Part shown: one piece after another, positions 11,950 through 15,081 of the stretch
Layout of the letters: each line of letters begins with the position of its first letter
Position numbering within the stretch: position 1 is the first letter of the stretch
Assembly (NCBI RefSeq): GCF_028689845.1
Contig: NZ_JAQVCH010000005.1
Span: 53,147 to 117,146, forward strand
Origin: Flavobacterium sp.
Lineage (GTDB): Bacteria; Bacteroidota; Bacteroidia; Flavobacteriales; Flavobacteriaceae
DNA length: 64,000 bases
Reading direction: 5' to 3'
Notes under the pieces: model-generated
Seen by the model: the letters and a program-made list of their open reading frames with translations, nothing else
Database searches by the model: none
What the model was told of the DNA's origin: nothing
Position numbers and translations under genes: made by a program

Positions 11950-14900
11950 CTATCCTACCAAATTTATGATTTTTCCTGGAACAATTATGATTTTTTTAGG
12001 CGTATTTCCCGCCAATTGAGCAATGGTTCGTTCATCTGCCATGATGATTTCTTCAATTTGAGCAGCGGTTAAATCTAAAGGTAATTTCAACGTAAAACGC
12101 ATTTTTCCATTGAAGGAAACAGGATATTCTTTTTCTGATTCTACTAAATATTTTTCTTCAAAAATTGGGAAATCTACTTTAGAAATAGAGCCTTCATAAC
12201 CTAATTGTTTCCATAATTCTTCAGCAATATGTGGTGCATAAGGCGAAATTACAACAGCTAAAGGTTCTAAAATTGCTCTATGATGACATTTTAAAGTGGC
12301 TAATTCATTCACACAAATCATAAATTGGGAAACCGAAGTATTGAAAGAGAAATTCTCAATATCTTCTGTCACTTTTTTGATGGTTTTATGCAACGATTTA
12401 TACATTTCAGCGGTTGGTTCGTCATTGGTTACATTTAATCCGTTATCATCAAAATACAATCTCCATAGTTTTTTTAGGAAACCAAAAACTCCTGTAATTC
12501 CTGCAGTATTCCACGGTTTTGCTTGTTCTAAAGGTCCTAAAAACATTTCATACAAACGCAACGTATCGGCTCCATATTCATTACAAATTTCATCAGGATT
12601 GACGACGTTATATTTTGATTTAGACATTTTTTCTACTTCGCGACCAACGATGTATTTTCCATCTTCTAAAATGAATTCAGCATCTTTATAATCTACATAT
12701 AATGGATGATTTTTGAATTTTTCTATATCTAATTCATTTGTAATATCATTAATTACAGCTAAATCAACGTGAATTGGTGCTACATTTAGTGATAAAATTT
12801 CGTTATTTGAATCTAAATCTGCAATAGATGAATTTAAAATAGAAAAATCATTTCTTCTATTAAATGACAATAACAATTGTTTTTTAACCCCAGTATTAAA
12901 AATTGCCTTCTTTTTATCTCTCAACCAAGCTTCATTAGAAATCGAAGAGTTAAAAATTTCATTTTGATACTTTAAATCAATATAAGTTATAGATTCTAAT
13001 CTATAAACAAAAGCACTCATTCCCAAAATCATTCCTTGATTAATCAACTTTTTAAATGGTTCTTCTGTTGGTGCAAAACCTCTGTCTTTTAAGAATTTGT
13101 TCCAAAAACGAGCATACAATAAATGTCCGGTTGCGTGTTCGCTTCCTCCAATGTATAAATCTACATTTTGCCAGTAATCTAACGCTTCCTTGCTTGCAAA
13201 TTCTTCTTCATTTTGTGCGTCCATATAACGCATCCAATACCAAGAAGAACCAGCCCAACCCGGCATTGTGTTTAATTCTAAAGGAAAAATAGTTTGGTTA
13301 TCTATTAACTGATTACTAACTACTGAACACTGAACACTGTCCCAAGCCCAAACCGTTGCATTTCCTAAAGGTGGTTGTCCATCTTCTGTTGGTAAATACT
13401 TTTCTACTTCTGGTAATTCAATGGGTAAATATTTTTTGTCAATCATTTGTGGTAAACCATTCACATAATAAACCGGAAAAGGTTCACCCCAATATCTTTG
13501 TCTTGAAAAAACAGCATCACGCAAACGGTAATTTGTTTTTCCTTTACCTTGTTTTATATTTTCTAAAGCTTCAATGGCTTTTTTTGTTCCTTCTTTATAG
13601 CCTAAACCGTTTAAGAAATCGGAGTTTGTTAGTGTAAATCCTGTTTTTTCACCATAAGCAAAATCCACCCCGCCCGTTGGGCACCCCTCCAATGGAGGGG
13701 AATTTAAACTAAAAATATTTTTAATTTCAGGCATTCCGTTGGTTCCTTTGAAGAAATTTGCGAAAGCATAATCACGTTCATCACCACAAGGAACCGCCAT
13801 AACCGCTCCTGTGCCATAACCTGCTAAAACGTAATCACCAATCCAAACCGGAATGGGTTCTTTTGTAAAAGGATGTTCGGCATAAGCACCTGTGAAAACG
13901 CCAGAAATGGTTTTTACATCGGCCATTCGTTCTCTTTCTGAACGTTTTGCTGTGGCCAGAACATAAGCTTCAACAGCTTCTTTTTGTTCAGGCGTTGTGA
14001 TTTTAGCGACCAAATCGTGTTCTGGTGCTAAAGTCATAAAGGTTACTCCGAAGATGGTGTCGGGACGGGTGGTGAAAACTTCGATAAAATTTGTTTCAGG
14101 TTTAAAGTTTAAAGTTTCCTCAGTTTGCGAATCTTTACTAAACTTTGAACTTTGAACTTTGAACTTAACAGTTGCTCCAACACTTTTCCCAATCCAATTT
14201 CTTTGCGATTCTTTTAAAGATTCTGTCCAATCGATATCGTTTAAACCTTGTAACAAACGTTCTGCATAAGCTGAAATTCGCATCGACCATTGAGTCATTT
14301 TTTTACGAATTACAGGATGACCACCACGTTCTGAAACGCCGTTTACGATTTCGTCATTGGCTAAAACGGTTCCTAATCCTGGACACCAATTTACTTCTGT
14401 TTCTGCTAAATAGGTTAATCGATAGTGTAATAGTATTTTTTGTTGTTCGTCTGATGAAAAAGTGTTCCATTCATCTGCTGAAAAAGAAACGATATTGTCA
14501 TCACAAACTGCATTTACATTGGTATTTCCTTTCTTTTCAAATTCTTGAATTAACGTGCAAATACTTTCTGCTTTGTTGGAATCATTATTGTACCACGATT
14601 CAAATAATTGGATGAAAATCCATTGTGTATGTTTGTAATAATCAGCGTTTGAAGTACGCACTTCCCTATTCCAATCAAATGAAAATCCGATTTTATCAAG
14701 TTGTTCGCGGTAACGAGCAATATTTTCTTTAGTCGTTTTATCGGGATGTTGCCCAGTTTGAATCGCGTATTGTTCTGCTGGCAAGCCAAAAGAATCGTAA
14801 CCTTGTGGATGCAATACATTGAATCCTTTGTGCCGTTTGTAGCGAGCTACAATATCGGAAGCAATATAACCAAGTGGATGACCAACATGTAAACCTGCTC

Positions 14901-15039
14901 CAGATGGATAAGGAAACATGTCTAATACATAGTATTTAGGCAGTAGGTTTTGGGTAGTAGGTTGTTGGGCTGCAAATGTTTGGTTTTCTGACCAGTAGTT
15001 GCGCCAATAGGCTTCGATTTCGTTTGGATAATATTTCAT
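11950..15039 (-). CDS. leuS: Leucyl-tRNA synthetase with in-frame repeat insertions
   Basis: Class I synthetase charging tRNA-Leu. All core parts are present: PYPSGAGLHVGHPLG near residue 42 (HIGH motif), the CP1 editing domain with TTRPDT and GTGAVMAVPCGDERD, the WAGSSWYWMRYMD block, and KMSKS in VEKMSKSKYN near residue 807. At 1029 residues it is longer than the roughly 920-960 I expect for relatives. The excess lies at four places where the DNA is made of short repeats or palindromes (residues 25-35, 292-313, 447-456 and 567-577), plus an unusually polar stretch around residues 676-765. None breaks the frame or hits a catalytic motif. A further repeat lies in the leader. The gene is transcribed alone. 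Confidence 0.95.
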   Translation of the reverse strand: MKYYPNEIEAYWRNYWSENQTFAAQQPTTQNLLPKYYVLDMFPYPSGAGLHVGHPLGYIASDIVARYKRHKGFNVLHPQGYDSFGLPAEQYAIQTGQHPDKTTKENIARYREQLDKIGFSFDWNREVRTSNADYYKHTQWIFIQLFESWYNNDSNKAESICTLIQEFEKKGNTNVNAVCDDNIVSFSADEWNTFSSDEQQKILLHYRLTYLAETEVNWCPGLGTVLANDEIVNGVSERGGHPVIRKKMTQWSMRISAYAERLLQGLNDIDWTESLKESQRNWIGKSVGATVKFKVQSSKFSKDSQTEETLNFKPETNFIEVFTTRPDTIFGVTFMTLAPEHDLVAKITTPEQKEAVEAYVLATAKRSERERMADVKTISGVFTGAYAEHPFTKEPIPVWIGDYVLAGYGTGAVMAVPCGDERDYAFANFFKGTNGMPEIKNIFSLNSPPLEGCPTGGVDFAYGEKTGFTLTNSDFLNGLGYKEGTKKAIEALENIKQGKGKTNYRLRDAVFSRQRYWGEPFPVYYVNGLPQMIDKKYLPIELPEVEKYLPTEDGQPPLGNATVWAWDSVQCSVVSNQLIDNQTIFPLELNTMPGWAGSSWYWMRYMDAQNEEEFASKEALDYWQNVDLYIGGSEHATGHLLYARFWNKFLKDRGFAPTEEPFKKLINQGMILGMSAFVYRLESITYIDLKYQNEIFNSSISNEAWLRDKKKAIFNTGVKKQLLLSFNRRNDFSILNSSIADLDSNNEILSLNVAPIHVDLAVINDITNELDIEKFKNHPLYVDYKDAEFILEDGKYIVGREVEKMSKSKYNVVNPDEICNEYGADTLRLYEMFLGPLEQAKPWNTAGITGVFGFLKKLWRLYFDDNGLNVTNDEPTAEMYKSLHKTIKKVTEDIENFSFNTSVSQFMICVNELATLKCHHRAILEPLAVVISPYAPHIAEELWKQLGYEGSISKVDFPIFEEKYLVESEKEYPVSFNGKMRFTLKLPLDLTAAQIEEIIMADERTIAQLAGNTPKKIIIVPGKIINLVG
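13308..13340 (-). repeat. In-frame repeat D in leuS (CTGAACA type)
   Basis: Tandem 7-base units: on the plus strand ACTGAACACTGAACACTG at 13322-13339, preceded by degenerate copies. It encodes residues 567-577 of LeuRS, between the conserved blocks VWAW and PLELNTMPGW. Confidence 0.75.
13672..13700. repeat. In-frame double palindrome C in leuS
   Basis: Two adjacent hairpins: GCCC-GTT-GGGC (13672-13682) and CCCCTCC-AAT-GGAGGGG (13684-13700). It is strongly GC-rich against AT-rich surroundings and encodes residues 447-456 (PPLEGCPTGG) between KNIF and the GF.L.NSDFLNGLGY block. Confidence 0.8.
14101..14165. repeat. In-frame repeat B in leuS (AAAGTTT inverted repeat)
   Basis: Arms TTTAAAGTTTAAAGTTT (14101-14117) and, inverted, four AAACTTTG/GAACTTT-type units (14140-14165). 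It encodes residues 292-313 of LeuRS. The same family occurs at 28318-28368 and 40325-40384. Confidence 0.8.
14935..14967 (-). repeat. In-frame repeat A in leuS (AACCTACT type)
   Basis: Two 13-base units on the coding strand, AACCTACTACCCA and AAACCTACTGCCT. It encodes residues 25-35 (QQPTTQNLLPK), just before the conserved YYVLDMFPYPSG block. Confidence 0.7.
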
Positions 15040-15045
15040 TTTTTT

Positions 15046-15081
15046 AAGATGCTGAGTTTCTGAGAGGCTAAGTTGCTCGGT
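15046..15081. repeat. Tandem repeat E in the leuS leader
   Basis: Units GCTGAGTTTCT (15051-15061) and GCTAAGTTGCT (15067-15077) in a 16-base period. It lies between the leuS promoter box and the ATG, so it is part of the 5' untranslated region. Confidence 0.65.

Follow-up and report, generated by a model that had tools for sequence, protein, structure and literature searches.

Homing nucleases in essential genes are usually removed again by the intron or intein that carries them, and in fungal mitochondria homing nuclease genes are inserted in rps3. Repetitive extragenic palindromic (REP) elements are short hairpins with an asymmetric tail that occur solo or in inverted pairs. The EDxHD family has been characterized as one of group I intron nucleases, homing nucleases at large being intron- or intein-borne or free-standing (PMC3943268); DUF559 has been assigned to the EDxHD homing family, and a DUF559 gene is treated in the intein section of the same source (PMC9403480). 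A Caulobacter DUF559 protein is reported to be needed for the DNA-damage response in cells without cytosine methylase (PMC12907096). Inteins are said to prefer conserved sites (PMC2814812), and Rickettsia palindromic elements are given as about 150 bp long with a conserved peptide (PMC10969869). Here we describe leuS, the leucyl-tRNA synthetase (LeuRS) gene, in a 64,000-nucleotide stretch of a Flavobacterium genome (contig NZ_JAQVCH010000005.1, positions 53,147 to 117,146), referred to as the window. Two loops of the enzyme, B and C, contain in-frame inserts coded by repeats; in relatives the same loops contain an in-frame cassette that encodes a DUF559 nuclease. From the sequence comparisons below, the cassette is probably a homing element that cuts the empty site and so spreads between species, and the unit at site C is probably its end repeat without the nuclease. 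A literature search, by title or abstract start, found no paper on in-frame DUF559 in leuS, metH, or recG.

Repeat-coded inserts at two loops of leuS

The window belongs to a draft genome of 62 contigs that is 90.8% complete. A preliminary description of its sequence had proposed that leuS absorbed four in-frame repeats of four unrelated families while keeping its catalytic motifs, with a fifth repeat in its leader (Table 1). The motifs are indeed intact, with HVGH at residues 51 to 54 and KMSKS at residues 804 to 808. Tandem Repeats Finder and an exact-run test identified period-7 arrays at residues 292 to 299 (26 nt), 308 to 313 (18 nt), and 567 to 572 (18 nt). The three arrays are beyond chance: leuS has 4 exact runs, counting the 14-nt double period of the first array, while synonymous-codon shuffles had a mean of 0.023 and 0 of 300 reached 4 or more.

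We aligned the window LeuRS with those of 56 of 60 genus genomes (57 rows), dropping G003, G048, and G037, which were partial, and G046, which had no usable match; by locus, the rows left out were the partial L009/L062, L019/L060, and L061 and the self copy L001. Site B, a loop near the start of the editing domain by alignment to the solved LeuRS 1h3n, is 43 residues long in the window against 26 in the base form, which 22 rows share; 30 rows are longer, and the remaining 5 hold a nuclease. Site C has 41 residues, compared with 30 to 32 in 50 of the 57 rows. The seven longer rows comprise the window, L023, and L025, which have the same unit; L008, L058, and L059, which have other repeats; and L057, which has a nuclease. 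The shared unit consists of a hairpin, CCCCTCC-ATT-GGAGGGG, followed by T, a second small hairpin, GCCC-AAC-GGGC, and a GGGGTGG tail.

Site D has the common length of 33 residues, with similar codons in many relatives, so the window has no insert there; in other species, 3 of the 57 rows are longer at this site. Site A has 31 residues against 28, a length that is uncommon and diverged, and is a three-codon length variant rather than a clear insert. By alignment, then, the clear inserts are two of the four sites, B and C (+17 and +10 residues), so that the proposed four inserts and four unrelated families are reduced to two and the earlier observation is confirmed in part. The preliminary description had named, as grounds against its claim, the presence of the same residues in most relatives or the absence of the repeats elsewhere in the genome. 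The residues are so shared at site D and partly at site A, and this is not the case at B and C, whose repeats are rare rather than common, each occurring at one other place in the window genome by the patterns searched.

A separate protein database was compared as well. Among the best 120 of its 7,999 LeuRS, at least 16 had the site-C unit, the window among them (the pattern failed to match 6 rows), and 7 of 119 had inserts at site D. By an automatic criterion, repeats were called in 16 of the 30 longer site-B rows and in one of the 22 base rows; among 260 control stretches, drawn from codons 1 to 250 of these leuS genes, one was repeat-like. When the three states of site B were placed on a LeuRS tree from which the variable sites had been excluded, 20 changes were required against 21.8 after shuffling, and 49 of 200 shuffles were as low. 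The states are as patchy as shuffled ones, and loop content differs freely between close relatives.

Table 1. Positions of leuS, its repeat segments, and its hypervariable segment in the window
Feature	Position	Strand	Description
leuS (leucyl-tRNA synthetase), host gene of the inserts	11950..15039	(-)	1029 aa; Pfam tRNA-synt_1, editing domain, anticodon domain
Site B, in-frame insert, +17 aa over base form	14086..14169	(-)	Residues 292-318; AAGTTCA heptamers and inverted GTTTAAA array
Site C, 39-nt palindromic unit, net +10 aa	13665..13703	(-)	Residues 446-459; peptide NSPPLEGCPTGGVD
Site D, 18-nt tandem run (CAGTGTT)	13322..13339	(-)	Usual protein length in the window; insertion site in other species, once with nuclease (L104)
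Site A, N-terminal loop, 3 extra codons	14935..14967	(-)	Imperfect 14-nt doublet; same length in 4/57 rows; weak
Leader segment	15046..15081	(-)	Single copy in the 454 kb of genome scanned
Site E, hypervariable segment before KMSKS	12778..12999	(-)	Residues 681-754; separate from the repeats

DUF559 cassettes occupy the same loops in related genomes

Five of the 57 LeuRS rows have 113 to 170 extra residues at site B, the main nuclease site in relatives, and one of them also has a second copy at site C; all of these residues lie over PF04480 (DUF559) matches. Across the genus, DUF559 was found in 218 of 398 genomes. Among the 150 matches listed, which are the best-scoring part of a longer list, 120 lie in open frames of at least 300 residues, and none of the 120 has a stop inside the match.

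Sequences were fetched for 80 places and further loci, mostly picked for large open frames. Once duplicate loci (L087, L088, L090, L092, L093, L095, and L098), domains under 90 residues, and matches of 30 bits or less were left out, 123 non-redundant domains were obtained: 33 at leuS-B (in 33 genomes), 1 at leuS-C, 1 at leuS-D, 30 at metH-1, 11 at metH-2, 15 in recG, 23 in a helicase gene, 4 in other hosts, and 5 free. Seven sites of four genes thus hold 114 of the 123, a share that is overstated by the way in which the loci were picked. Host genes were named by BLAST and, for nine proteins, Pfam. In the genus they are leuS (sites B, C, and D), metH (two sites), recG, and a UvrD-type helicase and, more rarely, an isoleucyl-type synthetase and restriction-modification genes. 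The domains of the L163 host read as isoleucyl-tRNA synthetase, and L185 is grouped with it by a matching flank. The earlier proposal that leuS is a tolerant landing site is supported in the genus, where loops B, C, and D take unrelated repeats as well as whole nuclease cassettes.

Thirty loci were also fetched from elsewhere in the phylum. Site leuS-B is filled in two further genera of the family (L310 and L313) and metH-1 in one genus of another family (L318); the hosts there also include HsdR, HsdM, and type ISP enzymes. DUF559 lies in frame inside restriction-modification or methylase genes at L308, L309, L311, L315, and L329 in the wider phylum and at L194 and L207 in the genus. The free-standing DUF559 genes L085, L086, and L123 have a common start, NMWKGA or NMWKDA, and the first two adjoin the same neighbor gene, which we take to be acyltransferase-like.

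A profile search with the nuclease matched 3hrl (E 3e-30) and 3r3p, annotated as 'Mobile intron protein' (E 3e-6), which we take to be I-Bth0305I. A defense-system scan of L057 gave one weak homing-endonuclease match. The nuclease is maintained: its columns E, D, E, D, H, and D are kept at 0.99 to 1.0, and the median ratios of nonsynonymous to synonymous substitution (dN/dS) over five sites are 0.11 to 0.33, low values that indicate purifying selection.

Cassettes cluster by insertion site and not by genome. On the nuclease tree, insertion-site labels changed 11 times, where 8 is the least possible, compared with 74.9 times when shuffled (0 of 200 shuffles were as low), and genome labels changed 119 times; the recG and helicase nucleases each form a single group. 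Some cassettes, furthermore, are far more alike than their hosts. The metH-2 nucleases of G028 and G138 are 99.1% identical, with 0 of 28 four-fold changes against 40 of 88 in the host (P 1.4e-6 before correction for 1,371 pairs). Moving outward in 90-nt steps along the left flank of this pair, identity drops from 0.96 to about 0.8; the nearest step includes the cassette linker, and the gradient is only suggestive of cassette exchange. Weaker cases are metH-1 of G126 and G101 (2 of 21 in the nuclease against 48 of 83 in the host) and recG of G315 and G061 (0 of 24 against 46 of 152). For leuS-B as a whole, four-fold differences average 0.580 in the nuclease and 0.604 in the host, and the nuclease value is slightly lower in all five groups.

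Cassette borders and nuclease-free alleles

Among the 30 recG loci, all 27 rows without nuclease that the pattern caught have a 7-residue loop, and all 22 such metH-1 rows have 14 to 16 residues. Comparison of filled and empty recG alleles shows that the cassette replaces a few residues, with no visible target duplication. At the five recurrent sites, patterns located both borders in 105 of the 112 copies, and in these, linkers of 5 to 49 residues on the left and 10 to 81 on the right join host and nuclease. None of the linkers in these 105 copies ends in HN or QN, as an intein junction would, and Pfam scans of 11 cassette proteins found no intein family. Because the linkers do not fit a splicing domain either, we rejected an intein. 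With no splicing domain in the scanned proteins, the mature protein would retain the nuclease as an additional domain.

Cassette ends are often palindromic. Within 170 nt of the nuclease, hairpins of at least 6 bp were found to the left of 27 and to the right of 21 of 33 leuS-B cassettes (controls, 2 of 33), at 8 and 14 of 15 recG cassettes (controls, 0 of 15), and at 11 and 16 of 23 helicase cassettes (controls, 0 of 23). Stems of 5 bp are visible in nuclease-free copies of metH-2, and in metH-2 of G033 and G055 (L211 and L212) both palindromic cassette ends lie in frame without a nuclease.

Links between the window repeats and the cassettes

One link between the window and the cassettes is the site-C unit. 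In G021 and G033, units of this type bracket free-standing DUF559 genes in inverted orientation, and inverted flanking units are also present in L051 and L057. The core of the site-C unit has 35 copies in 8 genomes, 6 of them within 250 nt of DUF559 against 0.018 expected under uniform placement, a count in which 2 of the 4 G033 nucleases were listed and for which several of the 8 genomes had been picked for carrying cassettes. At site C of L058, a solo repeat is close to the right end of the L057 cassette, and the database protein P0035 combines a nuclease at B with the window's site-C unit at C. The site-B heptamers are tied to the element by place only and may simply come from a loop tolerating any in-frame repeat. 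Solo palindromic cores also lie inside long open frames of other genes at L299, L302, L307, and L297; the L299 frame is presumably aroA-like and the L307 frame ruvX-like.

In the whole window genome, the palindrome core CCCCTCC-N2-6-GGAGGGG occurs at two places, leuS-C and contig position C16:41332, the latter inside a 499-residue open frame, and the 24-nt heptamer pattern occurs at leuS-B and C46:4141. When the five segments were compared by blastn with 454 kb of the genome, just shorter site-B pieces (15 to 25 nt) appeared at a few further places. By the patterns searched, an abundant repeat family in this genome was rejected. A heptamer different from the window's occurs in G032 at six places, two of which are leuS-B and metH-2, this genome being among those picked after the repeat was seen there. 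As a separate observation, the reversed control of the heptamer pattern matched 41 times in G032, where another heptamer array family is common.

The preliminary description had placed a REP-associated tyrosine transposase (RAYT) in the window and considered it a possible mobilizer. This did not hold up, as both Y1_Tnp (PF01797) matches in the genome are on contigs C23 and C58 and none is on C43, the contig of the window; a RAYT was thus rejected as mobilizer here, and the enzyme family tied to the sites is DUF559.

A hypervariable segment before KMSKS

Apart from the repeats, the LeuRS segment before KMSKS is long in 23 of the 57 rows (the window, L002 to L008, L010 to L018, L020, L021, L051, L053, L057, and L059) and short in 34. 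Long forms have a mean identity of 22.8%, compared with 21.2% when shuffled, and the 83 long forms among the 120 database proteins fall into 43 types at 60% identity. L006 and L011 are 17% identical in this segment and 96% in the rest of the enzyme; conversely, the window and P0002 are 96% identical in it and 86% and 89% in the compared parts on either side. Going by these alignments, alternative segments seem to be swapped under diversifying selection. LeuRS has known natural inhibitors (PMC5059758), and our guess is that such an inhibitor is perhaps the cause of the diversity.

Origin of the inserts and alternative explanations

We lean toward seeing a new homing life style here, in which a palindrome-bounded EDxHD nuclease would persist as a permanent, unspliced domain in loops of leuS, metH, recG, and helicase genes of one genus and in restriction genes elsewhere in the phylum, with its solo end repeats writing new peptides at the same places, as in this window. 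The cassette nuclease would cut the uninvaded allele, and repair would copy the cassette in. Loops would be the insertion sites because an insert that is never removed has to be tolerated, and solo end repeats might arise through loss of the nuclease or through separate insertion of the unit.

Several results weigh against such an origin of the window inserts. The window genome (G000) has no match to DUF559 and none to metH, so nothing there can be homing now. (Five of the 61 genus genomes, namely G000, G001, G022, G058, and G059, lack a metH match, and G027 was matched by the nuclease part of the query alone.) No cassette end resembles the site-B heptamers, and by the automatic criterion 14 of the 30 longer site-B rows are not repeat-like. 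The GGGGTGG tail points inward around the free DUF559 genes, whereas another tail points outward on the related hairpins of the leuS cassettes L051 and L057; since the tails differ, the site-C link is imperfect, and this has lowered our confidence in the explanation. Hairpins of 6 bp were found at 0 of 41 metH cassettes. We rejected the idea that short repeats are in general scars left by the nuclease, as the empty sites of recG and metH-1 are without repeats. An AlphaFold model of the natural LeuRS-nuclease fusion P0035 was too poor to use, with a mean predicted local distance difference test (pLDDT) score of 44.

The evolutionary comparisons raise objections as well. The nuclease tree was a quick search over 106 columns, and in it leuS-B and metH-1 need 4 changes each and metH-2 needs 3, so that these are not single clades. 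Of the 1,371 same-site pairs, 21 pass a transfer filter and 7 pass the reverse filter. Mean flank profiles at leuS-B and helicase show little or no gradient, and the nuclease is on average no more alike than its host (for leuS-B, mean nucleotide identity 0.655 against 0.751). Cassette and host identities correlate at 0.43 to 0.77, and since most same-site pairs diverge together with their host, vertical descent must be common too.

Among the alternatives, tolerance of the loops alone is possible, though we think it unlikely. Many kinds of repeat would arise or insert anywhere, selection would keep those in surface loops, and the DUF559 cassettes would be another surviving insert, with no homing involved. 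Such a process fits the many unrelated repeats accepted by site B and metH-2, the longer site-B rows without a repeat, and the patchy site-B states, and the Rickettsia palindromic elements offer a precedent (PMC10969869). It does not explain, however, why the fetched nucleases lie mostly at seven sites in four genes and group according to site, why every nuclease-free recG and metH-1 row caught carries no other insert, or why single cassettes are far more alike than the surrounding gene.

Each site might instead have been filled once in a common ancestor and emptied many times, an account that we regard as distinctly improbable. The single clades of recG and helicase nucleases, the codivergence of cassette and host in most pairs, and the occupation of the same sites in other genera of the phylum (leuS-B in L310 and L313, metH-1 in L318) are all consistent with it, but near-identical cassettes in divergent hosts, such as the G028 and G138 pair, contradict it for single pairs; for most copies it may still apply. 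It is very doubtful that the short repeats serve as protection, breaking the target at site B or C so that the allele escapes cutting: repeats and nuclease do use the same sites B, C, D, and metH-2, but the empty recG and metH-1 sites hold no repeats. Assembly artefact or chance can be practically dismissed, for although the genome is a 62-contig draft, the same site-C unit recurs in the same place and frame in the separate database and no synonymous shuffle reaches the observed runs.

If the cassettes are indeed homing elements, direct tests become possible of what a selfish gene inside an essential protein costs, how it spreads, and how it decays, and repeat-coded peptides in proteins would have a source. 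The nuclease family lies openly in frame in an aminoacyl-tRNA synthetase, methionine synthase, and DNA helicases across the genus, and related species hold empty, filled, and nuclease-free alleles.

Comparison with known systems

The cassettes are closest to EDxHD homing endonucleases such as I-Bth0305I (DUF559/Vsr-like), which they resemble in the nuclease domain identified by profile, in their site-bound lineages, and in the few pairs that suggest exchange between species; unlike them, the cassettes lie in frame inside protein genes, and no intron or intein was found. With inteins that carry a homing endonuclease they share an in-frame nuclease in housekeeping genes and the relatedness of same-site copies, but they have no splicing domain and sit at variable loops.

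The short repeats invite other comparisons. Rickettsia palindromic elements likewise survive as palindromic DNA in frame inside protein genes, but the site-C unit is 39 nt long and also flanks a nuclease gene. As in REP elements, this unit is a short hairpin with an asymmetric GGGGTGG tail that occurs solo and in inverted pairs; the partner enzyme, however, looks to be DUF559 rather than a RAYT, no Y1 transposase having been matched on the window contig. Inverted flanking units, seen in G021, G033, L051, and L057, recall miniature inverted-repeat transposable elements and insertion sequences, but no target duplication was seen between empty and filled recG. Finally, the homing nucleases of fungal mitochondrial rps3 belong to another nuclease family and to organelles, yet they share with the leuS cassettes an in-frame fusion to an essential translation gene.

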